57,987 nucleotides of DNA, from the IMG/VR virus record IMGVR_UViG_3300032265_000041, positions 1 to 57,987 of that record, one strand, 5' to 3'. Positions 1 to 48,322 of the stretch are shown here, piece after piece (within the stretch, counting starts at the first letter, position 1; the number at the start of each line of letters is the position of its first letter). Origin of the DNA: a virus. The position numbers and the translations under genes were made by a program. Under the pieces are notes generated by a model. It worked only from the letters and a program-made list of their open reading frames with translations. It made no database searches and was not told the DNA's origin.

Positions 1-2
1 AG

Positions 3-2159
3 AACAAAGAGATGGATATGGCGGAAGGTGACAGTAGTGCAAAATATAAAGTAAAAAGTATCGGGCATGATACCCGAGGTGATTACTATATTAGCCCAAG
101 CACTAGAAAGAAAGTTTATAAAAGTGGTGTCAAAGTCAGTGATCACGAAAACCCTAAAACGGGTGAGCACAAAGGTGTGGCGGAAGGTGAAGTAGTTCCA
201 TTAGGTAAAAAACATCGTGGTGATTTAGCAGGCATACATTCATGTCCCAAGTGCGGGGGCGAATTACAAGGTGGTAATTATATGGGTCAACGTGTGAAAG
301 TATGTCAACCATGTAAGCAAGTTTATCTACCACCAAATTCAGGTATTGATCAACAGGGTAATAAAACTAACGAGCAAGGTGTGGCGGAAGGCAAGGACGA
401 CAAAATTGCTCAACTAAAGAAAGACCATGACACCGCAGTTCATTGGAGTAAGAATGAGACAAGCCCGCAGAAGCGTGAGGCTGCTCGTCAGAAGGCTGAG
501 AAGATTAAAGCACACCTAGAGAAACAATATAAGCAAGGTGTGGCGGAGGACGATGCTGGTGATGTTGAACAGCGGTTTGCTGCTAAAATGGAAAAAGAAA
601 AACAGCGTTTAGCAAAAATAAAACAGACTGATCCAGAAGCATACAAGCGTGAAATAGCCAAGCGTAAAACTTCATCCAACATTCCCCCTGTGTCTACATT
701 TGAGCAACAAGGTGTGGCGGAAGAAGCCAAGCATGGCCTATATTATAATGTAAACAAGCGCAAGAAGGCCGGCACCAGTAGACCTGCAAGCAGTCCCAAA
801 GCACCCACAGCACAGGCGTGGAAAGATGCTGCTAAAACTGCTAAAAAAGAAAGTGTAGCAGAAAGACAACTTGACGAATTTGTACCAGCATTGGCAGCGG
901 GTGCAGGTGCATTAGCACGTGGTGCAGCAATGGCTGGAGGTGCTGCACTAAAAGGAGCTCAAGCATTAGGTGGCGTAGCATTAAAGGGTGCTCAAGCAGT
1001 TACACCGAGCCTAGTAAAAGGCGTACAATCAGCAGGCAATGCTGTTACAAAAGGTGTGCAAGCAGTTACACCTGGTGTTGCAAAAACTGGACAAGCAATT
1101 CAAAAAGTTCCAGGTCAAGTTGAAAAAGGATTGATAAAAGGATTTGACATGCTGAATGCTCTTGTTCCTGGGGGAATCTTTAATCCTGATGGAAGCATGA
1201 AAGGGTCGCAATATCTAACAAAATATCTAACGCCACAACAAATTCAACAAGCACAGCAACAACCGGCACAAAAGCAACAGCAAGGTGTGGCGGAAGGCAC
1301 AGAAAAACGCTGTATGCAGTGCGGCATGAAAAGTTGTAAATGCCCAGGTACTTCATGTAAGTGCAAGCCTATTGCAGGCTGGGTGCCTGGCAAGGGATTC
1401 AAGAAGGCTATGGACGAAGCTGCCAATGCTGCACAGCAGGCCGCTATTGCTATTTCTAAAAAGAAAGCAATGTCAGAAAACCCAGACTGGTACAATGACG
1501 AAGCAAACAGCATGTCCAGTAGCCAATTAAAAAGCCTATATAAACATGCGATGAAATTACGCCAAGCAGTTAAACAAATGCAGGCACAAGGTGATACATT
1601 AGAACCATGGCAGCAAAGTAAAGTTACCAAAGCCGCTGATTACCTAGATGCTGTGTTCAATGCAGTGGATGACGAGCATGACATGGGCGAGCAGACTGAA
1701 TTAGAAAGTGTGGGCGTTCCATCATACGGTGTAGGCGGCTATCGTAATCGTGGTGATGACGAGAGACACGATCTAGATGATCCAGAACTACAACAAAATC
1801 GTCAAGAAGTCACATCCTACAATATTACTATCGACGGCAAACCAATCAATCCCAAACCAATCTTTGGACGCAGTGCTACTATTGCCTGGGGCAAGAAACA
1901 TGCTGCCACTGGCGTAGATCTTTCCAATGCTATGATATCTCCAGTTAAGCATACTGAAGATGCCTATATGGAGTCACTACAAAATATGTTAGAGCGTTCT
2001 GTTAGTCAGGCACAACATAATCTAATGGTAGGTGTTGCACACAATCCAGCATTTGCCCAAAAGGTAAAAGTTAAACGAGCTGTTGGACAAGAATTTGCTA
2101 ATGCAGATCAAGGTCACGACATTAGCAAACTACCAATACGTGTTCCAAAAAAGAAATGA
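3..2159 (+). CDS. modular polyprotein with repeated VAE|G sites, probable capsid-internal protein (5' end may lie outside window)
   Basis: Function not established. The frame is open to the left edge of the window and no clear ribosome site precedes the first Met (base 12), so the true start is probably upstream. Numbering from that Met gives 715 residues. The motif (Q)GVAEG or a close variant ends at Glu5, 58, 126, 179, 237, 284 (SVAER) and 428. It divides the chain into unlike modules: a zinc-ribbon-like piece (CPKC at 78-81, CQPC at 98-101), two charged helical pieces (127-179, 180-237), a basic piece (238-284), a Gly/Ala-rich segment (about 290-380), a Cys cluster (434-451), and a helical C-terminal part. 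Hydrophobic-x-Glu before Gly matches the cleavage rule of T4 prohead protease gp21, so I infer processing inside the prohead. It overlaps the next gene by ATGA. Alternative: a structural scaffold or spacer protein whose repeats are not cleaved. Confidence 0.6.
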   Translation, partial: NKEMDMAEGDSSAKYKVKSIGHDTRGDYYISPSTRKKVYKSGVKVSDHENPKTGEHKGVAEGEVVPLGKKHRGDLAGIHSCPKCGGELQGGNYMGQRVKVCQPCKQVYLPPNSGIDQQGNKTNEQGVAEGKDDKIAQLKKDHDTAVHWSKNETSPQKREAARQKAEKIKAHLEKQYKQGVAEDDAGDVEQRFAAKMEKEKQRLAKIKQTDPEAYKREIAKRKTSSNIPPVSTFEQQGVAEEAKHGLYYNVNKRKKAGTSRPASSPKAPTAQAWKDAAKTAKKESVAERQLDEFVPALAAGAGALARGAAMAGGAALKGAQALGGVALKGAQAVTPSLVKGVQSAGNAVTKGVQAVTPGVAKTGQAIQKVPGQVEKGLIKGFDMLNALVPGGIFNPDGSMKGSQYLTKYLTPQQIQQAQQQPAQKQQQGVAEGTEKRCMQCGMKSCKCPGTSCKCKPIAGWVPGKGFKKAMDEAANAAQQAAIAISKKKAMSENPDWYNDEANSMSSSQLKSLYKHAMKLRQAVKQMQAQGDTLEPWQQSKVTKAADYLDAVFNAVDDEHDMGEQTELESVGVPSYGVGGYRNRGDDERHDLDDPELQQNRQEVTSYNITIDGKPINPKPIFGRSATIAWGKKHAATGVDLSNAMISPVKHTEDAYMESLQNMLERSVSQAQHNLMVGVAHNPAFAQKVKVKRAVGQEFANADQGHDISKLPIRVPKKK
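13..1296 (+). repeat. dispersed 15-base in-frame repeat AAGGTGTGGCGGAAG
   Basis: Near-identical copies at 172-186, 376-390, 535-549 (AGG end), 709-723 and 1282-1296, with weaker copies at 13-27 and 850-864. All are in the same frame and encode (K/Q)GVAE. Spacings are multiples of three (204, 159, 174, 141 and 432 bases). The codons GTG GCG are retained although nearby Val and Ala codons are mostly GTA/GTT and GCA/GCT. The copy at 850-864 has drifted to GTA GCA. Conservation at the DNA level suggests recent spread, or use as a joint for recombining modules. Confidence 0.85.
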
Positions 2160-2947
2160 AAATCAACGATTTATTAGAGTCAGACGACTACGAAATACAT
2201 AACCAAGAAAAACTAGATCGAATACTGGTCAAGTTATGTGAGATGGTCATCGAAGCACAACAAGAAGATAGTGAATACTATGGTATGGTTGCTGCCGGTG
2301 TCCTCGATCCTGATAATAATTTAGCTGCTGGAGTAAACTACCCACATGAAGAAGGCGGTCGTGTCCATGCAGAAAGAGCCGCAATGGAATTATATGAAAG
2401 CCAATATGGATCACCTGTTCCCAAAGGCAGTATCATTATTACAACATTAAGTCCATGTAATGAACACGCAGATAGGACAGCAGACGGACGCCACGGCGAA
2501 AGTTGCACTGAACTAGTAAACAATTCTACAGTTCATAAAGTCTATTGCGGATATCAAGATCCAAGCCAAGGTGACGACGAACACGATGAAAGAACATTCA
2601 CTTTAGAAGAAACTCGCAATCCTGTCATCCGTGCTCTTTGCAAAAAGTTTGCAGATACATTCCTAGATGGTCATGTTTCTGAATCAGCAGCTTGGCATCG
2701 TAAAGCTGGTAAAAGTAAAACAGGTGGGTTGAATGCCAAGGGCATTGCCAGCTATCGTAGAGAACATCCGGGTAGCCACTTACAGAAAGCTGTAACAACT
2801 AAACCCAGTAAACTAAAGCCTGGAAGTAAAGCAGCTAAACGCCGTAAATCATTCTGTGCTAGAATGGGCGGCAGTAAAGGTCCAATGAAAAAGCCAAACG
2901 GTGAGCCTACCCGTAAAGCCCTAGCATTGCGTAAGTGGAACTGCTAA
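2156..2947 (+). CDS. deaminase-like zinc enzyme fused to a basic C-terminal domain
   Basis: 263 residues. The N-terminal half looks like the cytidine/deoxycytidylate deaminase fold: HAE at 71-73 (zinc His71 and proton-shuttling Glu73), then SPC at 99-101, with Cys117 as the likely third ligand. The gap between the two Cys is much longer than the usual PCxxC. The C-terminal part (about 183-263) is very basic, with a KSKTGGLNAKG-type motif and SFCARM, a domain I have seen in other T4-like environmental phages without known function. Residues 6-9 (LLE|S) and 174-177 (VSE|S) both fit a T4 prohead-protease site, one at the N terminus and one exactly between the two domains. The start is set by the ATGA overlap with the upstream polyprotein. 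Substrate unknown. It could act in nucleotide metabolism in the cell, or be packaged. Confidence 0.65.
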   Translation: MKINDLLESDDYEIHNQEKLDRILVKLCEMVIEAQQEDSEYYGMVAAGVLDPDNNLAAGVNYPHEEGGRVHAERAAMELYESQYGSPVPKGSIIITTLSPCNEHADRTADGRHGESCTELVNNSTVHKVYCGYQDPSQGDDEHDERTFTLEETRNPVIRALCKKFADTFLDGHVSESAAWHRKAGKSKTGGLNAKGIASYRREHPGSHLQKAVTTKPSKLKPGSKAAKRRKSFCARMGGSKGPMKKPNGEPTRKALALRKWNC

Positions 2948-3141
2948 TGCGTATTTCTGAACTTGTAGAAAACTTTGCAGATGGGCGTCATCCTGAAGAT
3001 AAAGGTGACAGTAAACGTCACGGCATCAATACCAAGGCCGGCGTAAGTAGTCTGCGTAAGACTGCCAAACAAGGCGGACGCAAAGGACAACTGGCACACT
3101 GGCTGGCCAACATGAAAGCTGGCCGAGCAAAAAAGAAATAA
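2947..3141 (+). CDS. small basic protein with LVE N-terminal motif
   Basis: 64 residues, rich in Lys and Arg, ending in KKK. An upstream in-frame ATG at 2935 exists, but the start at 2947 is preferred because it overlaps the deaminase stop as TAATG. It also gives MRISELVE, which lines up with the MKINDLLE start of the preceding protein. The Glu at residue 8 falls where a T4-type prohead protease would cut, although the next residue is Asn rather than Gly, Ala or Ser. Basic composition fits a DNA-associated internal head protein, but nothing in the sequence proves it. I recall similar sequences in environmental T4-like phages, always as hypothetical proteins. Confidence 0.6.
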   Translation: MRISELVENFADGRHPEDKGDSKRHGINTKAGVSSLRKTAKQGGRKGQLAHWLANMKAGRAKKK

Positions 3142-3267
3142 AATCAAGTGCCGATTTACCTTTAAGCCACATTGGCTGTACTACGAAAAAACAGGGAAAG
3201 CTCATAGTTAGGGGTCCTCGGATGCCCGGTTAACCACTTGACATGATATTTAACAATAAATATATCC
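3142..3267 (+). other. 126-base intergenic region
   Basis: This is the longest gap in the window. It holds a 5-bp hairpin (AGCCA / TGGCT, 3165-3177) without a T-run, so it is a poor terminator. It also holds the palindrome GGTTAACC at 3229-3236, TTGACA at 3238-3243 and the late box at 3255-3262. I see no tRNA or small gene in it. Confidence 0.5.
3255..3262 (+). promoter_or_regulatory. T4-type late promoter box AATAAATA before the superoxide dismutase
   Basis: AATAAATA differs from the T4 late consensus TATAAATA at one base. Five bases separate it from the ATG at 3268. T4 late transcripts start about six bases after the box, so the predicted start is the A of the ATG. No ribosome-binding sequence lies between. 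A TTGACA at 3238-3243 is also present, but no good -10 lies 17 bases downstream before the ATG. Confidence 0.55.
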
Positions 3268-3810
3268 ATGTATAACTTTATAAAACAACTGCAAGAAGGC
3301 AGAGTAATTAAAAAATTAGAGCAGGTAGCCTTGCCCTATGCTCGTGACGGTCTTGGTCGTAGTTTGAGTAAAAAAGCAATAGACTATCATTATGGTAAAT
3401 TATACGGCGGATATGTGACTCGATTCAATGCTGGAGAAGGTGACCCAGATTTTAATGAAGCCGGTGCATTCTTGCATAGCATTTATTTTCCACAAATGCA
3501 ACCACCGAAAGGATCAAACCAACCTAGTGGTAAATCTCTAGAATTTATCAATCAGCATTTTAAAAGTTTTGATAAGTTTAAAGAAAAGTTTGAAAAAACT
3601 GCCATGGGCATACAAGGCAGTGGTTGGGCCTATCTTGCCAAGAATGGTGAAATCAAAACCATTGTCAATCACCAAATTAAAAACGATATTATACTATTAA
3701 TAGATTGGTGGGAACACTCTTGGGTGATGGATTATCAAGCCGATAAAAAAGGTTATTTGAATAATCAGTGGAAAATTATCAATTGGAATATCATAGACGC
3801 CCGTTTATAA
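3268..3810 (+). CDS. iron/manganese-family superoxide dismutase
   Basis: 180 residues. Converts superoxide to hydrogen peroxide and oxygen. All four metal ligands of the family are visible: His41 (DYHYGK), His70 (FLHSIYF), Asp146 and His150 (DWWEH). The gateway Tyr is Tyr49. Gly66 and Gln136 sit where MnSOD has its Gly77/Gln146 pair rather than the FeSOD Gln69, so a Mn or cambialistic enzyme is predicted. The usual His after YGK is Leu45. The spacing between domains is shorter than in E. coli enzymes (about 195-205 residues). An N-terminal extension of about 20 residues precedes the LPYA motif. It reads MYNFIKQLQE followed by Gly, so Glu10 falls where the T4 capsid-targeting peptide is cut. 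A late-type box lies 5 bases upstream. This suggests a virion-packaged enzyme (inference). Confidence 0.87.
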   Translation: MYNFIKQLQEGRVIKKLEQVALPYARDGLGRSLSKKAIDYHYGKLYGGYVTRFNAGEGDPDFNEAGAFLHSIYFPQMQPPKGSNQPSGKSLEFINQHFKSFDKFKEKFEKTAMGIQGSGWAYLAKNGEIKTIVNHQIKNDIILLIDWWEHSWVMDYQADKKGYLNNQWKIINWNIIDARL

Positions 3811-13961: not shown

Positions 13962-14816
13962 ATGAAAATTAAAGTATCTGAATTATTCTATTCTATCCAA
14001 GGCGAAGGACGCTTTATGGGAGTCCCGTCTGTGTTCTTGAGAACATATGGTTGCAATTTTACCTGTCAAGGATTTGGTATGCCTCGCGGAACATTAAGCA
14101 CAGAGGCAGATGATATTGCTAAACGGGCTGTTGAATTTACAGAATATAAATCACTGCCGCTTGTTAGCACAGGTTGCGACAGTTATGCAAGTTGGCATCC
14201 AGCATTTAAAGATTTAAGTCCAACAATCGAAGTTGAAGGACTTGCTAACAACATTGTAGCTACATTACCATTTAAAGAATGGCGTGAAGAACATTTGGTT
14301 ATTACAGGTGGTGAGCCATTGCTAGGTTGGCAACGTGCATATCCAGAATTGTTGGATCAGCCCTGTATGAAGAACTTAAAAGAAATTACTTTTGAGACTA
14401 ACGGCACAATGCGTTTGACAAAAGACTTTCGGCAATATCTACTTAACTGGACATTAGGCAACAAGTCGAGAGGCAAGGATGCACTTACATTCTCAATCAG
14501 TGCTAAACTGCCTTCAAGTGGCGAGTCGTGGGAAGATGCAATCAAGCCAGAAGTGGTATTGTCATATGAAGATGTTGGACATGCATACCTTAAATTTGTT
14601 GTAGCAACAGAACAGGATATTGAAGATGCATTAAAGGCAACACAACAATATCGTGATGCTGGATTTAAAGGCAATGTATATCTAATGCCGGTCGGTGGTG
14701 TAGAAAGTGTATACAGCGTTAATAATAAAACTGTTGCATTGGCTGCAATGAAACACGGTCTCCGTTATAGTGATCGGTTGCAGGTGCCGTTGTTTAAGAA
14801 TGAGTGGGGAACTTAA
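13962..14816 (+). CDS. queE: 7-carboxy-7-deazaguanine synthase, radical SAM
   Basis: 284 residues. QueE is a radical SAM enzyme that converts 6-carboxytetrahydropterin to 7-carboxy-7-deazaguanine. The start LFYSIQGEG is the diagnostic N-terminal motif, and FLRTYGCNFTC carries Cys31 and Cys35 of the cluster. The usual next Cys (CxxxCxxC) is not at position 38; a CDSYASW motif, as in normal QueE, appears at Cys72, so about 34 residues are inserted between the second and third cluster Cys. The glycine-rich SAM site is VITGGEP (about 112-118). FETNG follows. This insertion fits what I recall of a phage QueE subfamily. It has its own promoter. Confidence 0.9.
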   Translation: MKIKVSELFYSIQGEGRFMGVPSVFLRTYGCNFTCQGFGMPRGTLSTEADDIAKRAVEFTEYKSLPLVSTGCDSYASWHPAFKDLSPTIEVEGLANNIVATLPFKEWREEHLVITGGEPLLGWQRAYPELLDQPCMKNLKEITFETNGTMRLTKDFRQYLLNWTLGNKSRGKDALTFSISAKLPSSGESWEDAIKPEVVLSYEDVGHAYLKFVVATEQDIEDALKATQQYRDAGFKGNVYLMPVGGVESVYSVNNKTVALAAMKHGLRYSDRLQVPLFKNEWGT

Positions 14817-18899: not shown

Positions 18900-20150
18900 A
18901 TGACAAGCGTAATGAAAACTGAAAAAGTTAAAAAACCCGTAGCTACCAAAGAGTATACACAGGCAGAAAAGAATAAGATTGTTGAGAAGTTGGTCACAGC
19001 CCGTATTGGTCTGCTGTTGCGCCACCCTTTCTTTGGCAATTTGGCAACACGTATGAAGCTGATTGATGCGTCAGACTGGTGTGCTACATTGGCCACAGAT
19101 GGTCGTAACTTCTATTACAATAACGACTTTGTTAATAAACTTAAACCCAAAGAAGCAGAGTTTGGATTTGCACACGAAGTTCTCCATAATGTATTTGACC
19201 ACATGGGCCGTCGTGATCATCGTGACCCTACTCTATCAAACATTGCCGCAGATTATGCCGCTAACCAAATTCTTAAAGATGAACGTATTGGTGAAGTACC
19301 TACATTCATTAAAATCTATCAAGATAACAAGTATCGTGGCATGAGCTATGAACAGATCTATGATGACATTTACGAAAAGGCCGACAAGATTGACATCGGT
19401 TCGCTAGGCGAACTATTGGACGAGCACTTAGACGGTGATGACGAGAGTGACGGGGAAGGCGATGGAGAAAACAAGGGCAAAGGTCGCCCAAAGTTGACTG
19501 CTGAAGAAAAGAAAGCTATCCGCGACGAGATTAAGGAAGCTATGGTAGCGGCTGCACAGGCGGCAGGTGCTGGCAAAGTTCCTGCAGGTATCCAACGCAT
19601 GATCAGTTCTTTCACTGAACCTAAAATGGACTGGCGTCAAATGTTGCGTATGAATATTCAAAGTATTCTGAAAAGCAACTTTAGTTTTAGCCGCCCTAAT
19701 CGTAAGTCACAGCACTGTGGTGCTATCTTGCCAGGCATGATGAACGAAGAAACAATTGATGTTAGTGTAGCAATTGACATGTCTGGTTCTATTAGTGACT
19801 CTATGGCAATGGATTTCCTAAGTGAAGTTAAAGGCATCATGGATGAATATCAAGACTTCAAATTGGACTTGTGGACATTTGATACTCGAGTGTATGGCTA
19901 CCAACGTTTTACAGGTGATACGGCTGATGAGATCTTATCTTACAAGTGCCAAGGTGGTGGTGGTACTGACTTCGATGTAAACTATGACTTTATGAAGAAT
20001 GAAGGTATTGAGCCAAAACGATTTATTATGTTTACTGACGGTTATCCTTGTGGTAGCTGGGGTGATGAGAACTACTGCGAATCTTTGTTTATTATTCACG
20101 GTAACGACTCAATCGTTTCTCCATTCGGCCAGACTGCGCATTATAAATAA
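18900..20150 (+). CDS. VWA-domain protein with HExxH motif, MoxR partner
   Basis: 416 residues. The N-terminal domain has HEVLH at 92-96 with His101 (the HExxH of a metallopeptidase-like domain found in the VWA-like DUF2201 group). A linker of Asp, Glu, Gly and Lys (about 178-205) follows. The C-terminal VWA domain has the metal site DMSGS at 293-297 (DxSxS), a later Thr-rich GGGGTDF and FTDGYP. This domain order is that of bacterial VWA proteins paired with MoxR ATPases. The likely role is as adaptor for the MoxR ATPase encoded just upstream. Whether the HExxH is catalytic is unknown. Effect on host or phage unknown. Confidence 0.85.
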   Translation: MTSVMKTEKVKKPVATKEYTQAEKNKIVEKLVTARIGLLLRHPFFGNLATRMKLIDASDWCATLATDGRNFYYNNDFVNKLKPKEAEFGFAHEVLHNVFDHMGRRDHRDPTLSNIAADYAANQILKDERIGEVPTFIKIYQDNKYRGMSYEQIYDDIYEKADKIDIGSLGELLDEHLDGDDESDGEGDGENKGKGRPKLTAEEKKAIRDEIKEAMVAAAQAAGAGKVPAGIQRMISSFTEPKMDWRQMLRMNIQSILKSNFSFSRPNRKSQHCGAILPGMMNEETIDVSVAIDMSGSISDSMAMDFLSEVKGIMDEYQDFKLDLWTFDTRVYGYQRFTGDTADEILSYKCQGGGGTDFDVNYDFMKNEGIEPKRFIMFTDGYPCGSWGDENYCESLFIIHGNDSIVSPFGQTAHYK

Positions 20151-28772: not shown

Positions 28773-31700
28773 TTAATTTGACGTTAATGGGTTATTATTT
28801 TCGTCTAACAAAGGTGATCCATTTTCAGTAGTTAATGTGTTAACACTACGAGCGATGCGATCTCCTCCGTAGTAGTATTTATCGGGTAATTCTGCAGGTC
28901 TTTCTTGCAAGAATTTAGCCGGAAGTGTAGTACTATCCATGAGTGACACAGTTTTATTCGGATCAGTTAGCGGAAGGGCAATACCATTCCACTCTGTTGA
29001 TCTATCAAAACCCTTCTTAACAAGTGTTAATTTAATTCTGTCGTCAACTCCATTAGCAATATTTAACACTAACCTCTGATCAGCTGGTAGATAAAAAGAC
29101 AGCGGCCACGCTATCGTTATTTCTGCTGCAAATCCAATGCCCCATCCATTAAACATAGTGTTGTGACCAACACTAGTTACGGTATACTCATTACCATTAT
29201 TAGTTTGCATTATCCATCCGGGTTGTATTTGAGTTGTATAGGAATTTTCCACTATTACAAATCCCGATCCTATTAGCGGTTGATTACCGGTTACATCATT
29301 CCTAATAACAATTGGACCTTTTTTTAGAATAACAGTAATATCAAATTCTGGAGGTAGATAATTTAATCCTCTGTATACGTAACCATTTACTGCATCAGGT
29401 TCAACAGATCCGGTATATACCCAAACTTGATTTGTTGTAGTCACAATATATGATGTACCAATTATATTAGTATTTGGAATATCCTGTACAGTTGCAGTCG
29501 ATTCAATAGTTATATTTTTAGTATCGGGACTATCATAAGATAAAGTGGTATCATGAACAAATATTCCGTCTTTTCTTAATAATCGACCACCGTAAAATAC
29601 TTGTACTTGATCAACAGTACGAATTGGTAAACTAGTAAGCGGTGCAGTTTGTAATGCTATTCCATCACTAACAATAACATCAGTAGTGTTAGGTATTGTT
29701 ATTGTCTGTGTATTGAGATTAATAATGTATGTAGATGTATTAGCAGTTGTATAATGAACTTGTGTACTAATTGTTTCAGCAAATGGAATAGTTTGATCAG
29801 GACTCTGATCAATTACTTTAGTTCCGGCAATGTAATAAAGTCCGGGAGATGTACCCAATGTACCTCTTCGTAGCTGTCTTAAAACATTCTTATCTGCCTT
29901 CATAAATTCAATACGCTCGCCGTCAATAATAACAACGCCGGGAATATTTTTACTTATTAGAGGCGGAGTAAGTGCTGCAGAATCATCAACATATATTTCA
30001 GTATCAGTAAACGATAATGCACGAGTTAACTGTGTGGTATTTTCTTTAGACAATCGTTTAAAATGTGTTCGGTTAAACATATCGTTAAAGATTCGATAAC
30101 CTAAAACAGCAGTAGCTAATCGTTGATCAACCATGCTTCTAATAACAATAGAATCAGTAGATACTATAGGATTTGCATCGCTAATTTGTATTGTCATTTG
30201 ATCATCTAATATACCAAAATCTAATCCACTAGTTAATGGGGTTCCATTTAATTGTACCCAAACATAATTTATATTAGTTACCGGACGAGATATTTTAAAT
30301 CGTCTATTTGGATTTCCATCAAACCGTTCTGTCCTTATTACCATATCATCAGCATCATTATATGTAAGAACTTTAATTTCACCAGTAGATGTACTTAGGC
30401 TTAGATTTAATGTTGTTCCGACAATATCATATTCATAATCTTTATCAGCACCAGTTGGTAAATCTACAATTGCAATTACATCTCCAATCGATAGTCTTAC
30501 AGAAGATGTATCAATTGTTACAACTTTTCCAGAAACTGTAAAATCAAATCCAGCAGTTATTTTAATTCCGTTTCTATAAACACGAATTGTTTGGTCCGGA
30601 GGATAATGATTAAATGTTCCTTGATTATTAATTAAGAATACATTGTTAGTAGGTGATGTTACTTGATAGTAATCAATATGCGGAGGTATTAATTGTTTGC
30701 GTACCTGTGTGATAGGATCATAGTGCTCAACTATAGTTTCGGCAACAACTGGTTCTATGTTACCCGGACTGTGAGTAAGAGAGGTTGAAGTAGTAGATGT
30801 GTTAATAACAATAACCTGCTCACTAATCTCATTAAAGTAATCATGAAATGTTCCAAAGAACCAGGCTTGTGCAGTATTTACAAAACCATCAGGCAAATTA
30901 AATACCTTAACAGCAGCACGATGACTTGTTTCATCAACTGGTTCAAACTTATAATATATAGTACTCGAAGTTGTTATTGCAAGTCCATTAACTGTCACGT
31001 ATACACTCTTAACAGAATCAAAATCTGCTAAACTAACTACAGTGGCAGTTACATCTACCGTAGTTGTTATTGCATTGTCAATTACACCAATTTCGGTATA
31101 AGTATCGGAACGGCCGCCGCCGATACTAATAATAGTATATCCTAAATAACCACTAACAGATTGAGGACCTACTACAATTTCATTAGTTTCCCAATCAATA
31201 TAAAAGAACGGACTATCTAAAACAGTAGGAATATCTGTACTTATACTAAACATTCTACCATCAAATGAAACTGTAATATTATTATTGCTAGGTGGAACTA
31301 TTCCTAATTTTCTACGGGTAGTAACATTCGGTAAAATATCTACAGAGTGAGTAAACACCACAGGGGCACCGTGGAATGTTTTTGTATAAACATTTATTCC
31401 AATGCTATCAGATGCTTGTCCGGGTACAAATTCTTCCGGGGCATGACTGGTATTGGCTGTATAGAATCCATCACCGTCAATAATGATATCTTCGGGATTA
31501 ATACCTAATGCAAGATTGCGAGTTAATCCAGTCCAGCTCCCACCGGATATATTACTATCAAGAAGATTTGAATTTTCATCATATGTCCAGAACTCTATCT
31601 GATAAGTAGTATCGCTCGGATTTAATGCTTTGGACAGAGTAGAGTTAAATGCTACAGCCCTAGTAGACGTATGAACTTCTGTAACTATTACAGTTGAGGT

Positions 31701-34700
31701 GTTAAATCCATTGGTAGTAGTGCTAATAATATTAGCATGTTGACCCACCGTAATACCAGTAGTGGTATTTAATATAACAATATTATCACCCATAACAGCC
31801 GTAGCTGCTACTTTGGCTTTTGTATAATACCCAATATTATCAGCATATGCAAAAGTATCAAATGGATTTAAATCAGAGCCTTGCATCCATGCTAAAGTAC
31901 TGCCAAATGGCAACCCTTCGATTTGTGTTTTAGGATAATCAATACCGGTCATTAATTGACCCAAATCCATCCCCGGCATACTAGATGTTGCAGTATAGTA
32001 ATTTAAAATACGTTCAGTTGCATTAAACAATTCAACGCTCTTATGATAACTTACTTCTAACAATTGAGAATCAGTCGGAATATAATTTAAAAATATTAAC
32101 TTGCTGAATTTCTTTTCATAACCATTATACTCAGAAGTATAATACTGAATACTATAATCCGAACTCATTGCAACCCGACCGTCTACATACACATCAATCT
32201 TAAACTTGTCTTTCTCTGCTACCCAATTTAATACAAACTCATTAGTATAACCGTTACAAATAAATCTATCAACTACAATAGTGTCGCCAATTTGATTAGT
32301 ATCACTAATACGATCAAATTTCATACCAATTAAATTAGTACGAACTTTTCCATTAATTAGATTTGCATATGCAGTACCGTTAGTGCCCAATGTGCCGCCG
32401 ACTAATGTAATTATTGGAGATTTTGTATATCCGCTTCCGGGATTAGCAATTTTAATAGATGTTACTTCTCCAGATCCAATATATGCAACTGCGGTTGCAG
32501 TGGTTCCAACATCACCATCGGCATGAGTGATTTGCACCGCAGGAGCACTTGTATATTCAGATCCAGGGTTGCTAATTGAAATACTACCGATTGTATATTT
32601 GTAATTGTCTGCCCAAGCCTTCCAAGGATACGATGTTAGTTGACTGCTTTGTTCAAACATACCTGTAGATTTATTATATACAGACGGTAGATCAAAGTCA
32701 GATGTAAATGTTTGTGTCGGTTCAATCACTGTATGATTAGCAGTAAAACTACGAACAGTTGTATGATAAGGTTTAACCTCAGCTAGATATTGTTCATAAT
32801 AATCACTACTAGAGATCTTATATACAGGACGTTGATCCAATGTACCTGCATAATTAACAACAGTAATGAAAGATGTCTTAAATGCCCAATCTAATAATTT
32901 CTGTTCAGACAATGCATACTTAACGGCTTTGAAGAAGAACAGATTCCAATTGATCTTAAGATCGTTAACAAATATATTATCACGCAATGCCGCTAATATA
33001 TACTGAAGTTCGATATCGGGTGTTTGGTCAAATAGTGTTTGGTCAAACGTACTGCGTTGGTCAAATCCGTATGTACTTGCAGAAAGGTTCCAAATGGTAT
33101 CTAATATTTGTATTGTACCATTTTCACTATAAACAATATTGTAGTCGTTGCTAAAAGAACCATCAATAGCTGTCTTTTCTAGGATGATATAATTGCCCAA
33201 ACCACCATTCTTAACTTTAACATACTGTCCGTTAGTTAACGTTAATTCATTAACTTGGTAAACATCGTCAACAGTAGCAACATAGTCTAAAAAGGGATTG
33301 TAATCAGTGCTAGACCAATCTACATATTTCCAATATAAAGGAGTGTTGTACTGCTGAGTTCCTGTACGTGTCCATTGATCAGTGCTTAAATCATAAACAA
33401 ATTTAGACCACTTGCCATTAAACTGGGTATCAGCTATTACGATAACAGTATATTGACGTACTAACAAAGTAGGTGCTACAGTAAATCCAGAACCTGCATT
33501 AACAATAGTGGCAGAAATAACTCTACCCATACTGTCAATCTCTGTAGTAATTAATGCATCAGATTCAACATCATTAACAATTTTAACTGTTGGAGAAATC
33601 TTATATCCAAATCCGGAACTAATGATTTGTACACTGCGGATTCTTCCATTATCAATAGTACATGTTAATTTAGGTAATTCAAATAACCTAGTATTAATAA
33701 CCAATAATCCTTCATTGTCTTCTACTGTTTGATCGTATTCATGAGTATATGGACTAGGAATAGTATCTTGTTTGTTTAAATTTATAAAATCATAATTTCC
33801 AGAAATTCTATTCTTAATCAAAATATTGTTAGTAAATTCGACTAAATTTCTTAATGCTTCTAATCTATCTTTAAACAATGTTTGCTGAGGTCTGATACCA
33901 ATACCATAACGTGTTCTAGATGTTAATTTAGGATCAGGAACAGAATTTCCTAATTTATCATGACCTAATAAACTATCAAGCAATTTCTTTTCAAGTAAAG
34001 CGTTTGGTCTGCTGATTGCAGATCCTTCTTGTAACAATAACCATTCTGTATGTCGAAGTGTACTAGTTGCCGGATTATTTTTATTTGTAGAATCAGATGC
34101 AATGTTTAAATGTATTCTATCACCTACTAACATTGACCCAACATTAGCTAATGCCACTGAATCACTATCTAATATAGCGGCATACTTTAAACCATATACT
34201 GTGGGATCTGCAATCATAGAAGCAACTTGATATGCATTTGTTCTTCTGTTTGTCGAGTCAGGTACTGTAATTTTATTCTTAACCCAATAATAGTAACGAT
34301 TGCTAAATGAATTAGTTACAGAACTATAAACTTGTTTGACAGAAATAACACTGTTATCAGCAAATTTAGGTTGGCCACTAATGCCTTCTGTTAGACCGGC
34401 AGCAGTATCGGCAATAGAACTCCATTCGCTAGGAAGATATGACGAACCGACCCATTCATAAACATCAATAGTTGCTCCGGGGAATAGTTTGCCCCAATTA
34501 TTCTTTCTATATGATAAATCACTTTGCTCGTACCATTGATACTTAACAGTGCTTAAATCCCACCATAGTTCACCGACATGTTCATGCAACCAGTTAGTAT
34601 CTGTGTCATTTACTGTTCCTGCTATACCTATAGAATATACAGCAGGATCAAACGCTGATTTATATTTCAATTCTTGATCAGCAAGTCCTGCAATTTTTCC

Positions 34701-37700
34701 TTTTAAAGGATCAATGATATCTAAATAATCAACTACTTCTTCTGTGAAAGAATTAATCAATGTTACTTTCTGTATAGCATTGGTCATTATTAGACTATCT
34801 TGCTCTCTTAATACATTATAACCAAATACAGATTTATCAATCTTATTAAATTGATAGACCGCATTTGTAGTAGCGTTAGATGATTTAGCAGGTGCTCCAA
34901 CATATATAACATCATCATCTACTGCAATACTAGTACCGTAATAAGAACCTTCTACAATTACTTCGGTTTCTAAATCATCTGCTAATACATATCTAGTATG
35001 TCGTTTATGATAAACATACACAGTACCTATATTTTTAATTACCCCATAGAACGTTGTTGATTTAGCATCAAATGTAGATTCAGAAGTTGATTTTGTTTTA
35101 TCAAACGTAGTATGTAAAGATTTATTATCACCGATCGCAGAAATAATTAGTGTATTGTTATCGGTACTTATGTCAACATCGTGCCCAAATTTCATTCCAT
35201 CACCAGATATAGGATTAGATAAAATTGCATCTAATACAAATAATCCAGATGTTGCTGTATATATTGCAACTGCGCCAATTGATAAATCTTCATTTACATA
35301 AGTAGGAGCAGATATTGCCAAATACGACCCATCTCCGGATACAGTTACTTTTTCACCAAATCTACCTGTACGAGTTGTTAAGGTAAAGAATGGGGAAATT
35401 ATAGTCTGTAAAAATGTTACGTTAGTTCCTGTGAATATACTTACAAGTCCAATACCGTCTGAATAACCAGGAGCACCGATTGCTATTACGCCTGCATTAT
35501 CAGACCCACCGATACTATATCCCCATTGGCTACTAGTTGAAACTGTAGAAGTTGTAATTTTTTTAACATAATTGACACGAACTGTAGATGTCGTTGCATT
35601 TACGTTAAACGAATATACTGTCCCAGTCCCTGTTGTTAATGTACCAGGTGCTCCAACTAATAATAATTTTGTACTTGTATTTCGTTGTACATAAATTGAA
35701 GAGCCAAATCGTTGAAAGTTAGTTGCATCTGGGGCTCGTACCACCGCCTTAGTAGATGCTTCTAATATAGAGATATCGACACTACTAATTTTTACTATCC
35801 CTTGCTGAATTAAAGATGACGGAGTAGTTGTGCCTGGATTATATACGTGACTAACCCCGGGGGCTCCTACAAATATCAATCCATAATTAGTATTAGTAAA
35901 TGTTATATCATCATAAACAACACAACTACCAAACTCAGTAGCAGGTGTCGTGATATCATAATAAGGAGTTACATCATCATTTAAGAAATACGAGAATAAT
36001 CCTTGAGATTCTTTATCTATTTTTTTATATACAGCAACTTTACCAAAGATGCTACCATCGTTATATGCAGGTGATCCTATAACAAAAATGTCATTACCTT
36101 TTCGTTTGCTGATACTATAACCAAATTGTTCATGGTTAGTAGAGACAGAGGTAGCAATTGAACTATAGTTATTAACCTTTTCATATACCGCCCACGTCTC
36201 GGGCAAATACTTATTGCCAGCTTTTGATCTGTCAACAGTATCATTAATCCAAAATTTTGTATTATCAGGTAAGTTCAATAATTCGGTATCAGAAGGAAAA
36301 CTATCGTAATTAGACACTCGAGCAGATGTAAATTTAAACAATGCGCCCGGTTCAGGCAACTCAGCATTTGTTATAGATGCCAGTGTCGATGCTACTGTAA
36401 ATCTTGTTTTTAAAGGAACACCCGTAACTCGATAGACTCCATTAATTTGAGTGTTAAACTGAGATACAGACACAATATCACCTACTGATAAGTTATGGTT
36501 GATATTAGTTATAAATGTAATCTCAGCAGTCGGTGAACTAACAAATACTCCCGTAACCCCAACATCGGATCTGACGTATCTAACAACATCCCAACCACCA
36601 TTTGGTTTAAATCCTATCCATATAGTGTCGCCTTCGTTTATATTATTGTTATTAGCAATGTCTAACAAACTGTTTTCGTTATATGCTGTTGCAGTTACAT
36701 CATCTAATCTTACATAACCCGCAGTGACTAGCTTAAATTCAAAATCAATATCTGTCTCGACGGAGAATGTTGATGCAGGAGTATAATCTTCTGGAACAAT
36801 GATTCTATCGCTACTAGTGCTATAGTAAATTAAATCATTAGCAATTATAGGTTTAGAATCTACAAATTTAATAATTTGTGGATTTTCAATAAACCTGCCC
36901 TCTGCTAAAGGTACTTCTAATTCTTGATAAGTTTCATACGATCCATAATGACCGATACGAAATGCCCATTCTTCTGAATAGTCTAGTCTACCTTGCAAGT
37001 TATGGAGACTAGCTTTAGCTAGTTTAGTAATAGCATTACGGGTGCCTTTTTCTTTAATAAATCCTTGATAGAATTTATATTGAGCAATAGGATTTGTAAA
37101 AATATTATTTAGATATACTCGCGGTGTATAACCAGTTAAATGCTGTGCCATCTTTTGTTGGGCACTGTCAAAGTTATCAATATCCGAACTATAAAAATCT
37201 TCAAATTGATTGATCTTATAATCAAAGTTTGGTAATAACCCTGCAACTGGTTTTTCTCCCAACTTAGTCCACAATATAAAATCAAATTTAACAGAACCCA
37301 CTACATTCTTAATGGCCGAATAGTATTGGCTATTAAAGCGAACAATATCTCCATATTTGTAATCAGTGTATTGTGCCCAATCTGTTATCTGGGCGCTGTC
37401 GTATACAAAGCCAGGACTAAAATAATCACCGTTCCAATTTGCTGTACGGAATCCTGTTAACTTCATCCTGCGCTGACGATATCCGGTTTCAATGTCATAG
37501 ATAACATCTTTAAACACTGTTGCATTGTTAAAAACCATTGCGTGTTCTTTCTGAACAGAATGGATAGTAGCAAAATAAATGCCATCTGTGGAGTTTACTG
37601 TTTCAATTGTACAGATACCGTTATCTCTATTAACAGAAATATTATTTTGAGGGAATGAAATGCCATCAGCCTTTAATAAACTATATTCATAAAAACTATC

Positions 37701-40700
37701 AAATATATTATCTACTACCGTATTAATAAAATTATATTTTATCTTTTCTGCAAATGGACTTAGCGTTATTACGCTTTGATTGGCCCAATTTTGTGTGGTC
37801 CAGTACAAGAATTCTTTGGCCGAGAATGACCAATTGATCGCGGAATTAAGTTCAGTATTGTAGTCATCAAAAATAAATCCCTGATCTGTTAACCATTCCC
37901 CATAACCTATAATCAAGTCATATACTTCTTGTATTGTAGAAAATTCTGTCTTATACGGAATTTGTGTAACTTCAGTTTCAAATTTAATAGCTGTCTGCAC
38001 AACTGCACCACCGGTAATAGGCAATGATGGTAAAATTTGGAAATACGATACATTAAATACTGAACTACTTTGGTGACTAACTGTTACTCTATAAAAATTA
38101 TTACCATAAGAAACAAACTGTCCTACTTGATAAAATTTACCAGTAGTAGCAGAGACTGCTGTAGTAGTATCTGCTGCACTAAGATTAGTTGCTCCTGCAG
38201 ACGATCCACTACTCCATATTACATAAGGTGCAGAAACTCCACCAACTGTTATAGTAGGAGTATTAGAATTTCTAATAGGTGTATAAACATTAAAATAAGG
38301 ATTAACAGTGTCATACCCCTGTACTGCATATTTGTCGTTTATTTTTTGTACAACTAAACCAGATATGCTTGCAGATTTTACAGGATTACTAGTGTTTAAA
38401 ATTAAATTGTAATCTTCTTGAGGCAACAATGCACCCGGACTTGTACTATTAGGTTCGTATGCATCGATAACAATTTGCAATTTATCTTTGCTAACAAACC
38501 CGCCAACTTTATAAAATAAGTTAAAATCAATGTAGATCAAATCTTGTCTTAATTGATCAACATATTTTGTAGATCGTTGTTGACCTATTTCAGATATATA
38601 AACGCTATAACCGCTGGTTTGTGTTTTATTAGCATCGTCGTGAATGTTAACTGCGGTAATATTTAAAAATTCTCCAGCAGTTCCATATGTCCATTGTCCC
38701 GCAGCATTTTTAATTATTCTGCTAGGGTCATACATTAGAGATGCATAGACAGCAGGCTTTGTTAGTGCTAACAATTTTTGTACAACGAACGGCCAATAAC
38801 TGCTACGGCGCCATGCTGTTTCTGCAGGTCCTTGATCACCAAATTTCCATCCTTGCCTCTTATTATATGCGGTAATATTGTTTACTAAACGCACAGATGG
38901 TGTTACTAAATTGCCGGCTGTGTTAACTGGCAACATAGATAATAGACCAGGTCGAGCATAAACAGGATTACTACTGTTATTGTGGCGATTAAAGCCGTTT
39001 GATAAATCAGTCCATAATTGAGTGTTAGTAGATAGGTAAGGGGCATCACCGTATTCTGCAGACCACCATGTCGGTTCTTCTGTAAATCCTAACATTTCCC
39101 AAGGATGAGTATGGGGACGATCGGTATCGTAGAAATATTTAAATACACCTCTCCAATATCCCGGAACATACGTTGAACGGGCTGCATTATAGCTACCTGT
39201 ATAATTCCATGTAAAAGGGTTAGCGTCATTAAACGAATTATTAGTAGTATAATCTATACCGTAAAATCCAGACCATTTTATAAATTCGCCTTGTAGGATA
39301 GAATTAATTTCAGTTACTGAATAATCGGTAGTTCTAAATGCACTAGGTATTATGCTGTTAACATCTATCAATTCTGGTCTGTATTCTGCTTTAATGTTAT
39401 TGTAAACACGCTTTTCAAATTCAATAATAATAGCATCTCTATAATCATTATAGGCTAGCATTATACTGCCATCATGTCCCTGGATAACATTTACAGGAGT
39501 AAGATATGTATTATCTTCAAATAAGCTAGGGATAAATTTTGGGAACAAACCTAATTTAGTAGGAGTAGCAGGTACAAAAGATCCTTCGGTACTATAATAA
39601 TCATCAACAACTAATATATCACCGGTTGTTAAAGATTTTAAAATTTGAATAGACGAATCGTTAGTTACAAATTTATAATCGCGATCTCGTAATATTTGTT
39701 CGCCATTTAAGTAAACAATAATAGAACGTAGGCTTAATGTAGTAAGACTAAAATCACTAACAATAGGATATACAGTATTACGAGAATCTGTTATAGTCCA
39801 TGTTCTAGTAGTTTTATCAGTACCGTATGCGATCATATCTGATAGATAGTACGGAGATAATAAATCTTTGTCTGCATTTATTTCTTTTAATGCTCTATCA
39901 AGACTTCCCACAGGATCAGTTTGTGTATCAATTTCGGAAATCTTTTTTAAGAACGACAACTTAAATTGATTATATTGATCAGCTGATTTAGTTAATGCAT
40001 CAATTACACTGTGTTCTTTCTTACCAATAAAGAAGTTTGCAAATGCTAATGGGTTAGCATTAGATACTAATCTGTTACCATAATAGGCAATATTAGAAAT
40101 ATCTCTTAAATTACTAACGCCAGGATACTTACCAATAAATTTTGGAGATTTAATTATAGCAGTATGTAAATGATCGCTTAACTCACTTAATGTTAGAGAA
40201 GTAATAGGGCCATTTAATGGATTGTTAGTTAACGATAAAGGTAGTTCATAATATCCATTATCATTTGCAGTACGATTTGTATAAATGTTTATTAGTACGT
40301 TGTCGTCAATTGTCAATGATGGATTATTAAAATAGATTTTACCAAGGTGTGGAGGAAATTCGTAATTAGAAGTGAAAACATTATTAACAAATACTTCTAT
40401 TTTCAAAGAATCCGTGGCAGGCAAATCAATAACATCAATTACAATAGTAGAAGTAGTGGATTCTGTAACTGTTAGAGATTGAATAATAGGGATTTGATAA
40501 GGTGCAGAAGTTATCCAAACGTTCCCATATGTACCATCATTTACAAATTTAAAATATGTATCACCGGTTGAAATCGTATTAACTGAATTATTAGATTGTG
40601 CAATTTCAATTGTGTCTGCCATGAAATAATTCTTGAATAGGAAACTTCCAACACCTGAACTATTTTTATATTTTAAAGGAAATCCCAATACAGGATCATT

Positions 40701-46000: not shown

Positions 46001-46008
46001 TATTTATT
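46001..46008 (-). promoter_or_regulatory. T4-type late box AATAAATA before gp25
   Basis: One mismatch to TATAAATA on the minus strand, 4 bases before the ATG at 45996. The predicted start falls on the first or second base of the start codon. Confidence 0.55.
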
Positions 46009-48322
46009 TTCCTAAAGATGAGCCGGTTTTGACAGGAGTTCCATCCGATGTTGTTAGAATAGTACCGCTACCTGTACCAACTACACCTCCAGATAATTGC
46101 GCCAAGAAGCATTCATAAAATCCTTTCTTAGTAGAATAGATATCAGGTGTACAGAAGCCAACTGAGTGAATAGCTTTTTCGACATACCCTGGGTCAGACT
46201 GGGGTGCTTTGCATCTATCTAACATATACAAAACACTAACTTGAGCGGCAACTTGCGGAGTGGCTAACAATTCGGGATTATCAACCAAGGCAGTTGCAGA
46301 ATTGACTAGTTTCTTATCAAATAACATCTTGCTGTATCGAGTATAGTTTGCACGGCCAGTTAATTGAATGTATCCTCGACCAACAAACTTTGCGCCATCC
46401 CCTGTTTCTGTATTACCTAGTCCTTTACCCTTACTAGTTGTGGAACCGTATAAGAATTCAGGAAGACTATTGTTAGGATTACCTGCATATTTGGCCGCTA
46501 GATCAGCATCCCCTTTGAATACACTAGGGAATACCTGTAGCAATCTAGCCGCAGTGTAATTAAAGTTTTCTGTTGTTAGTTTCCAGCGACATTCTCCACC
46601 TGCAATACCCAACAATGATGCAACAGCATTAGGTGTTGTTAATCCCAATTCTGCTGCGGCAGCTTTGATTGCAGCAATACCTGCTTGACTTGCACTATTA
46701 TTAATGTCTTTGGCAAATTTAGGATCGCAAGTTCCCGGAACAATTTGAGGAGTATTTGCTGGATCTTGAATACCTGTTGCAGGACTATCTGCTACACCAC
46801 TACTTGCACGACTTTGTAAACTTGCATCAGTTGCGGCGGAACTAAATTGTCTAGGATTAACGTTCTCATGTTGATCCCAAGGTTCATGTGTTGGAACACG
46901 TTGCATGATACTACTGATAGGATCTGCTTTAAAGAAGTTACCATTGGCCCACCCTGCTTCAAACTTTCTATTAGGTAATGAGAACAATGACAACATCGGA
47001 GGAGTCTCTGCTGTATCAGCCGGATCTGCTGCGGCTGCTGCTGGACCATTCATATGTATTAATGCCGCCGATTCATAATAGTTACCAGTAGCACCTACGT
47101 TAAAATTAGCACCGGTGCTTTGTTTCATATCACCTTCAGATGATAGACTCATTGTACCTGCGGAGGTTATCTTAGCATCCTTGCCAGTTAATAAATTTAA
47201 ATCATTTATAATCGTAAGATTGTGTGTATCACCTATTGTAGTATCTAAACTATTACGTATAGCAATCTTAGCATTATCATCAACAACTAGGAAATAATGT
47301 CCTGTAACGTTTGTTTCCATATTTTGCAAAGCACGTATATTGATATTACGTCCTGCTTCCATGTTAATATCCCTATCAGCACGGAAGTTAAAGTCTGCTT
47401 CAGTGTGAATACTTACGCTATCTTGTGCATAGATATCTAACTTGCCGGCACTGGTCATTTCAATCCATGCTGTGCCTTTACTATTAGCAATATAAATTAA
47501 ATCTTGTGTATTGTGTAATAAGATTTGATGACCAGTTCTTGTTCTAATTCTAACTAATTCATTTTGTCCATTAACATCGCCGTCGTCCATAACAAAAGTA
47601 CTACCGCCTAATCGACTGACTGGTGCTTGTGTATTGCCTTCGTACCCAATCTTTCCTCGTTTAGCGCCAGGACTAGTATCTAAAGGACCGGGTGTACTAA
47701 TACCAAATACGCCACTAGGTACTTCTCGTCTAGCACTAGAAGATGTCACTCCACGAACATTATCAATTAATAACCCCTGAGCCAATAATCTGTCAGCAAA
47801 TGGATGAACAGGTTTTGCAGTTCTATCAATATTAGGTGTATCTACTTTTAGACTAGACGAATGTAATTCAGCCACCGGCAAATAATCAGTGCCGTACTTT
47901 TGACGTTGTTCCGCAGTAACCGCAGTTTGTTTAGTGGCGGCAATCCCGGGTATCATGTGATTCTGGAATTCGGATGGTACACAACCTATCCAATAACCTT
48001 GGTTAGGATCTCCGTCAATGAAAATGACCATAACTTTAGTACCTACATCGGGTGGTACCATCCACATACCGTAAGACTTTTGTACATCATTAAAGTCACT
48101 GCTATTAGTTCCTTCGTACCTAACTGATGTCGATCCAGCAAATGGACTTAGATATCTAACAATGTAAGTGTCTGCTTGGATACCTATGTTAGATTTAATA
48201 CCTTTGAACAGAGCAACTTCTACACTACCCATGTAGGTAGGGTCTAATAGGTTAGTAACCTCGGCAATAAATGGACCAGGACTTGGTAATTTAGCGCGTG
48301 ATCTTGAATCAATACCCGACAT
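46004..48322 (-). CDS. 5: baseplate hub / tail needle protein, gp5-like with GH19-type lysozyme domain
   Basis: 772 residues. The N-terminal third (about 1-130) is the gp5 OB-fold (PGPFIAEVTNLLDPTYMGSVEV, then VPPDVGTKVMVIFIDGDPNQGYWIG). A middle section (about 255-410) of short beta repeats (IEMTSAGKLDIYAQDSV, INMEAGRNINI) is the beta-helix needle, as in VgrG. The C-terminal 230 residues form a lytic domain with GGECRW and VGRGYIQLTGRANY, the GH19-like lysozyme/chitinase type. In T4 gp5 a GH24-type lysozyme lies between OB-fold and needle, so both the lysozyme family and its position differ here. The gene overlaps the upstream one by 14 bases, and an AAGGGA precedes the ATG. Confidence 0.87.
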   Translation of the reverse strand: MSGIDSRSRAKLPSPGPFIAEVTNLLDPTYMGSVEVALFKGIKSNIGIQADTYIVRYLSPFAGSTSVRYEGTNSSDFNDVQKSYGMWMVPPDVGTKVMVIFIDGDPNQGYWIGCVPSEFQNHMIPGIAATKQTAVTAEQRQKYGTDYLPVAELHSSSLKVDTPNIDRTAKPVHPFADRLLAQGLLIDNVRGVTSSSARREVPSGVFGISTPGPLDTSPGAKRGKIGYEGNTQAPVSRLGGSTFVMDDGDVNGQNELVRIRTRTGHQILLHNTQDLIYIANSKGTAWIEMTSAGKLDIYAQDSVSIHTEADFNFRADRDINMEAGRNINIRALQNMETNVTGHYFLVVDDNAKIAIRNSLDTTIGDTHNLTIINDLNLLTGKDAKITSAGTMSLSSEGDMKQSTGANFNVGATGNYYESAALIHMNGPAAAAADPADTAETPPMLSLFSLPNRKFEAGWANGNFFKADPISSIMQRVPTHEPWDQHENVNPRQFSSAATDASLQSRASSGVADSPATGIQDPANTPQIVPGTCDPKFAKDINNSASQAGIAAIKAAAAELGLTTPNAVASLLGIAGGECRWKLTTENFNYTAARLLQVFPSVFKGDADLAAKYAGNPNNSLPEFLYGSTTSKGKGLGNTETGDGAKFVGRGYIQLTGRANYTRYSKMLFDKKLVNSATALVDNPELLATPQVAAQVSVLYMLDRCKAPQSDPGYVEKAIHSVGFCTPDIYSTKKGFYECFLAQLSGGVVGTGSGTILTTSDGTPVKTGSSLGK

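Follow-up and report, generated by a model that had tools for sequence, protein, structure and literature searches.

Are the neighbouring genes at the left end of an uncultivated viral record a set of proteins that would be loaded into the phage head and cut there, and why do the cut-like sites of one of them recur as nearly the same DNA? The record comes from IMG/VR and has 57,987 bp; its whole length is called the window here. The internal proteins of phage T4 are a known route for injecting anti-defence and takeover proteins, and the initial annotation of the window had proposed that four adjacent genes encode capsid cargo of this kind. Judged from the sequences, this reading is likely. It agrees with the leaders of homologues, with the sites in the superoxide dismutase and the basic module, with the presence of an S77 protease in related records and with a relative detected in virions, but the corresponding site is kept in fewer than half of the deaminase orthologues. 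All four open reading frames (ORFs) on which the annotation was built were confirmed at their positions (an arrow marks a putative cut):

3..2159, + strand: candidate cargo polyprotein (ORF call, 718 aa in the window), with modules set apart by GVAE sites and shared with many other polyproteins
2156..2947, + strand: deaminase-like protein with a C-terminal DUF6321 domain and the leader MKINDLLE↓S (PF00383 and PF19846)
2947..3141, + strand: small basic protein of 64 aa with the leader MRISELVE↓NFADG (ORF; E precedes NFADG in 24/24 contexts)
3268..3810, + strand: Fe/Mn superoxide dismutase (SOD) with the N-terminal extension MYNFIKQLQE↓G (PF02777 and PF00081)

The polyprotein ORF is open at its 5' end because the record itself begins there. 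Both the N- and the C-terminal domain of the SOD (PF00081 and PF02777) scored above the cut-off in a Pfam profile search. Furthermore, DYHYGK, FLHSIYF and DWWEH were read in its sequence, which may contain the counterparts of the metal ligands His, His, Asp and His of E. coli SodB. On the 3' side of the SOD follow a small gene matching a transcription-regulator PHROG and then a B-family DNA polymerase. Of 80 SOD loci, 12 have the whole gene order of the cassette and others a part of it; 46 of the 80 displayed the SOD alone, with a short flank or differing surroundings. For a tightly packed cassette, the gap that separates the SOD gene from that of the basic protein (3142-3267, + strand) is unusually long.

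Cut-like sites and leader peptides

The prohead protease gp21 of T4 cuts after L/I-x-E (PMC9026906). In the T4 internal protein IPIII the first ten residues are enough for packaging, and the cut is governed by residues 8 and 10; an altered residue 10 may block processing in T4 and yet permit targeting (PMC9026906). Three of the window proteins had been described as having hydrophobic-x-Glu at residues 8-10. This holds for the SOD (LQE↓G); in the deaminase (LLE↓S) and the basic protein (LVE↓N) the motif occupies residues 6-8. The count of up to seven sites in the polyprotein is a fair one if, besides five GVAE and one SVAE, a degenerate DMAE is included:

15..26, + strand: degenerate site D-M-A-E↓G, with the rare codon GCG and GAAGG retained
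172..187, + strand: DNA-locked site 1, K-GVAE↓G (GVAE from nt 174; sequence, codon lock)
375..391, + strand: DNA-locked site 2, Q-GVAE↓G (GVAE from nt 378; exact 17-mer)
534..549, + strand: DNA-locked site 3, Q-GVAE↓D (GVAE from nt 537; GAG in place of GAA)
708..723, + strand: DNA-locked site 4, Q-GVAE↓E (GVAE from nt 711; sequence)
852..863, + strand: SVAE↓R, which may be a cut site but lacks the DNA lock (AGTGTAGCAGAA)
1281..1297, + strand: DNA-locked site 5, Q-GVAE↓G (GVAE from nt 1284; exact 17-mer)

An N-terminal LxE by itself was rejected as weak evidence: LxE with E at residues 8-12 occurs in about 11 % of the genes of seven related records against 7-11 % at internal control positions. 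With this background, its occurrence in three adjacent genes out of 48 stands out only slightly. Chance falls far short of explaining the GVAE sites, since they are conserved as DNA and not as protein alone.

Conservation of LxE in homologues, which the initial annotation had named as a check, gave a divided result. Among SOD homologues hydrophobic-x-E↓(G/D/S) was found in 27 of 27 distinct N-termini despite varying leader length, in a set collected in part by searching with the N-terminal peptide of the query; the SODs of a PA5oct-like phage and of a Vibrio phage have a different leader or none. For the basic module the E before NFADG is present in all 24 distinct contexts, behind many different leaders. 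Deaminase orthologues possess LxE in only 6 of 13 distinct N-termini, and for that gene this is the outcome which the annotation had said would speak against it. The leaders of DUF6321 relatives, MKSHEFITE↓S, MRASEFITE↓A and MKTTEIITE↓A, closely resemble the leader of T4 IPII and IPIII, which reads MKTYQEFIAE↓A in the T4 record. Among motif-bearing ORFs with a complete 5' end, 76 of 159 have a leader with hydrophobic-x-E and the E at positions 8-12 from the first Met, compared to 7-11 % in controls; the true share is probably higher, because the set includes some chance matches. Orthologues of the window polyprotein with a complete 5' end possess a different leader, M(N/T)NEFKK...VLE↓.

Protease and capsid proteins of the relatives

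The initial annotation had suggested looking for a prohead protease gene outside the window. A Peptidase_S77 (T4 gp21 family, PF03420) is in fact encoded in six of 12 records, comprising 11 motif-bearing relatives and the window. The same six records contain both this protease and a gp23-type capsid gene; the window, a fragment, has neither. The capsid proteins of the relatives resemble those of jumbo T4-like phages, and one that was tested is 62-64 % identical over the first 130 residues to CBB, GAP32 and Vibrio phage 2.275.O. At the position where removal of the propeptide is expected they read LAE↓N, LLE↓N, LKE↓N or LAE↓S, the presumed cut site. At the third position before the cut L or I is preferred by T4 gp21, and GVAE has V, which counts against the explanation favoured below.

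In the polyprotein N-termini L264, L010, L350, L294, L285, L305 and L270 the sequence after the first VLE↓ resembles that after the presumed cut in the capsid proteins of G004 and G009. The polyprotein reads VLE↓TATAGATSAGVVAT and the capsid protein LAE↓SATAGATSAGNIAT, as if the cut context had been copied.

The GVAE site is fixed in the DNA

All five GVAE sites of the window read GGTGTGGCGGA, and four of the five read GGTGTGGCGGAAG. The 17-mer CAAGGTGTGGCGGAAGG is present in at least 120 IMG/VR stretches, and among the matches listed all copies lie in the frame Q-G-V-A-E-G of the longest local ORF. An unbiased set was restricted to sites which the 17-mer search could not select, that is, sites with another residue before or after GVAE. 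In this set GGTGTGGCGGAA was found at 79 of 108 sites, against 0.5 % expected from the codon use of the same ORFs, and the Ala codon was GCG in 88 % against 7 %; ordinary codon choice is rejected by these two comparisons. Where the Gly before VAE is missing, the codons are mixed. An enlarged set comprises 441 sites in 225 ORFs, and 304 of these sites have the exact 12-mer. Conservation around the motif starts climbing at position −6 and is lost beyond +14. When the third positions were left free in a scan, many of the matches were due to chance, and the sites in polyprotein-like ORFs mostly had the same codons or were one change off.

The codon lock may be caused either by selection or by homogenisation through exchange; a wobble test for selection on DNA at unrecombined junctions comprised 11 pairs only. 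Among the polyprotein variants in G000 and the 11 relatives, such as GMAE (L512, L514), forms like GGCATGGCGGAA have the remaining motif codons unchanged. The change from V to M looks like a single-base decay of a locked site.

With one mismatch allowed, the 15-mer core of the 17-mer was found in 11 of 11 relatives with 1-7 copies each, on a single strand per record. It is absent under the same setting from all eight isolates searched, namely T4, CBB, GAP32, 121Q, Callisto (PA5oct-like), S-SCSM1, S-TIM4 and Vibrio phage 2.275.O. Cellular genomes totalling 257 Gb were searched for the 17-mer and gave 70 scattered matches, none of which is a polyprotein of the GVAE-module kind. The assumption that the motif is common to any genome is rejected by the cellular genomes together with the eight isolates. 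No publication on polyproteins of this kind, or on GVAEG in connection with phage, was found in literature searches.

Exchange of modules at the motif

If the ORFs are divided at GVAE, the internal modules have a median length of 76 aa. Pairs of homologous internal modules from different ORFs have unrelated neighbours on both sides in 45 of 51 cases, and nine of these 45 pairs are 90-98 % identical in DNA. The module starting with SNDTIYPNAEVIK exists in 13 copies, which are combined with 11 kinds of left partner and 13 kinds of right partner. At 31 left and 55 right junctions the homology extends as far as the motif; there a DNA identity of about 85 % gives way to one of about 26 % over a few bases at the motif edges. 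In a wider set gapless homology continues up to the motif in 175 of 382 junctions and past it in five; in the other junctions homology ends inside the modules or indels are present, which counts against the favoured explanation.

Because the junctions had been defined by GVAE, the module SNDTIYPNAEVIK was retested by protein search alone. The motif or a one-base variant is situated directly 5' in nine of 12 loci and is missing in three divergent copies, and six copies with a common 3' site are joined to five different modules. The GVAE motif is a DNA-locked junction at which modules have been shuffled. The lock and the shuffling were not part of the initial annotation and are the more novel part of the present analysis.

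Proposed mechanism and alternatives

The explanation that we favour, and regard as probable, is a capsid-cargo polyprotein in which a prohead-protease site doubles as an in-frame junction for the exchange of cassettes; from the evidence above we infer packaging, cleavage, delivery and the mechanism of recombination. The new element of the proposal is the link, namely that one sequence would act as exchange site and as putative cut site. The setting would be uncultivated jumbo T4-like phages in which N-terminal leaders would steer proteins to the core of the prohead. There a prohead protease of the gp21 type (S77) would cut after hydrophobic-x-Glu and release the SOD, probably the deaminase, and the small modules of the polyprotein, and the freed products would remain in the head and be delivered along with the DNA. 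In evolution the polyprotein would have been assembled from modules of about 76 aa that can replace one another. Its main putative cut site Q-GVAE↓G is fixed in the DNA over about 15-21 bp (AAGCAAGGTGTGGCGGAAGGC). Modules would be swapped in frame at AAGCAAGGTGTGGCGGAAGGC through recombination over short homology, for which a UvsX-type system of the phage itself is the probable agent.

An alternative that appears unlikely, although it survives best, is a single uncut multidomain protein in which GVAE is a flexible linker and a shared homology for recombination, the protease not being involved. The linker is predicted to be disordered between folded modules, and for the most mobile module the prediction is a compact domain of four strands and a helix, with low-confidence ends at the motif; a comparison of this predicted structure with the PDB gave no convincing match. 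However, the linker fits the rule of the protease and occurs in proteins with T4-like leaders. In addition, the SOD and the basic protein of the cassette have the same kind of site with an invariant E, which also argues for cutting.

Still less credible is that the lock reflects another role of the DNA or RNA, such as a nuclease target, RNA processing, a translation pause or a Chi-like signal, and that exchange is a by-product. Such a role would agree with the rare codons (GCG) in the motif and with its fixed orientation relative to the gene, but the motif is confined to one reading frame and one ORF class, and the breakpoints lie on it. The most improbable of the three is that a recombinase or homing endonuclease specific for the motif moves the modules. 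The sharp breakpoints on a short conserved sequence and nuclease genes such as the HNH gene at window 18900-20150 speak in its favour. Against it, the motif has no inverted repeat, no gene was linked to the motif, and tyrosine and serine recombinases (PF00589, PF00239) were not found in a search of the 12 records, some of which are fragments. RecA-family genes are present in six of the 12 records; given these and the result of the recombinase search, homology-driven exchange is favoured.

If the combined cut and exchange site is real, a single short DNA sequence would solve two problems at once, the in-frame exchange of modules and the release of each new module in the head. It would explain, in a way open to testing, how injected phage proteins evolve so quickly, and it would be an example from nature of phage heads that deliver multiple proteins; the 17-mer would be a sequence tag for many unknown injected modules in metagenomes. 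A broader proposal, plausible and held more tentatively, is that a widespread lineage of uncultivated jumbo phages maintains an open library of virion-delivered modules, which are swapped in frame at the DNA-locked prohead protease site of 15-21 bp, so that acquired cassettes would automatically be packaged and released as separate proteins.

Virion evidence and possible functions of the modules

The cyanophage protein S-SCSM1_29 was detected in virions by mass spectrometry, likewise an NMNAT, with the caution of the authors that enzymes may have co-purified (PMC9602691). S-SCSM1_29 has two module families in common with the GVAE polyproteins, including DACYHKVKSRYKVWPSAYASGALVKCRK, and it carries DUF6321. 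In contrast to the relatives, S-SCSM1 is a distant isolate without the 15-mer, which limits the weight of its virion protein. NMNAT-like nucleotidyltransferase genes at G008:78073 (− strand) and G001:228765 (+ strand) adjoin or carry a GVAEG site.

Most of the modules are without a match in Pfam and PHROGs. A minority matches GNAT acetyltransferases, nucleotidyltransferases, 5'-nucleotidase (NT5C), LysM, SutA-RBD (RNA-polymerase-binding), cytidylyltransferase or a T7 0.7-like kinase, several of them weakly. These matches would suit a function in host takeover.

Comparison with known systems

IPI, IPII, IPIII and Alt of T4 are similar to the present proteins in their near-identical short leader, the hydrophobic-x-E before the cut (putative in the present proteins), the S77 protease and the diverse small cargo behind one leader (PMC3012670). 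The T4 leader was proposed to be an evolutionary device for bringing varied proteins into the head (PMC9026906). The T4 internal proteins are encoded by separate genes, whereas the GVAE phages have many modules per polyprotein and an internal site that is locked in the DNA, and their putative cargo includes enzymes (for example SOD and deaminase). The head proteins of phiKZ-like phages and SPN3US, with multiple prohead-protease cuts after Glu per protein and with internal proteins that are ejected into the host, are a comparable case; there, however, the cut pieces are propeptides which are largely lost, and neither module exchange nor a codon lock is described (PMC10052503).

PeSL-mediated modular shuffling in T4-type phages (Arbiol 2010; Comeau 2014; both as cited in PMC4503421) resembles the present case in that a short conserved sequence supplies the homology for module exchange between related phages. 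As outlined in that source, PeSLs are promoter stem-loops between genes, whereas the GVAE motif lies within a gene, as part of its reading frame, and is translated into a putative cut site. Identity with PeSLs is ruled out, as all copies are coding, in one frame and inside long ORFs, and the motif is not self-complementary. An integron-like or other site-specific cassette system was likewise rejected, no tyrosine or serine recombinase being encoded in the 12 records, fragments among them.

Further features of the window

Among the tail genes of the window a single ORF of 4443 aa occupies 28773-42104 (− strand), and an ORF of 4524 aa begins at G008:28179. At 46004-48322 (− strand) lies the gene of a baseplate hub protein whose C-terminal domain is endolysin/chitinase-like (phrog_13211, phrog_181). 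A QueE-like radical SAM protein (phrog_2076) is encoded at 13962-14816 (+ strand), which may be a pointer to 7-deazaguanine DNA modification.
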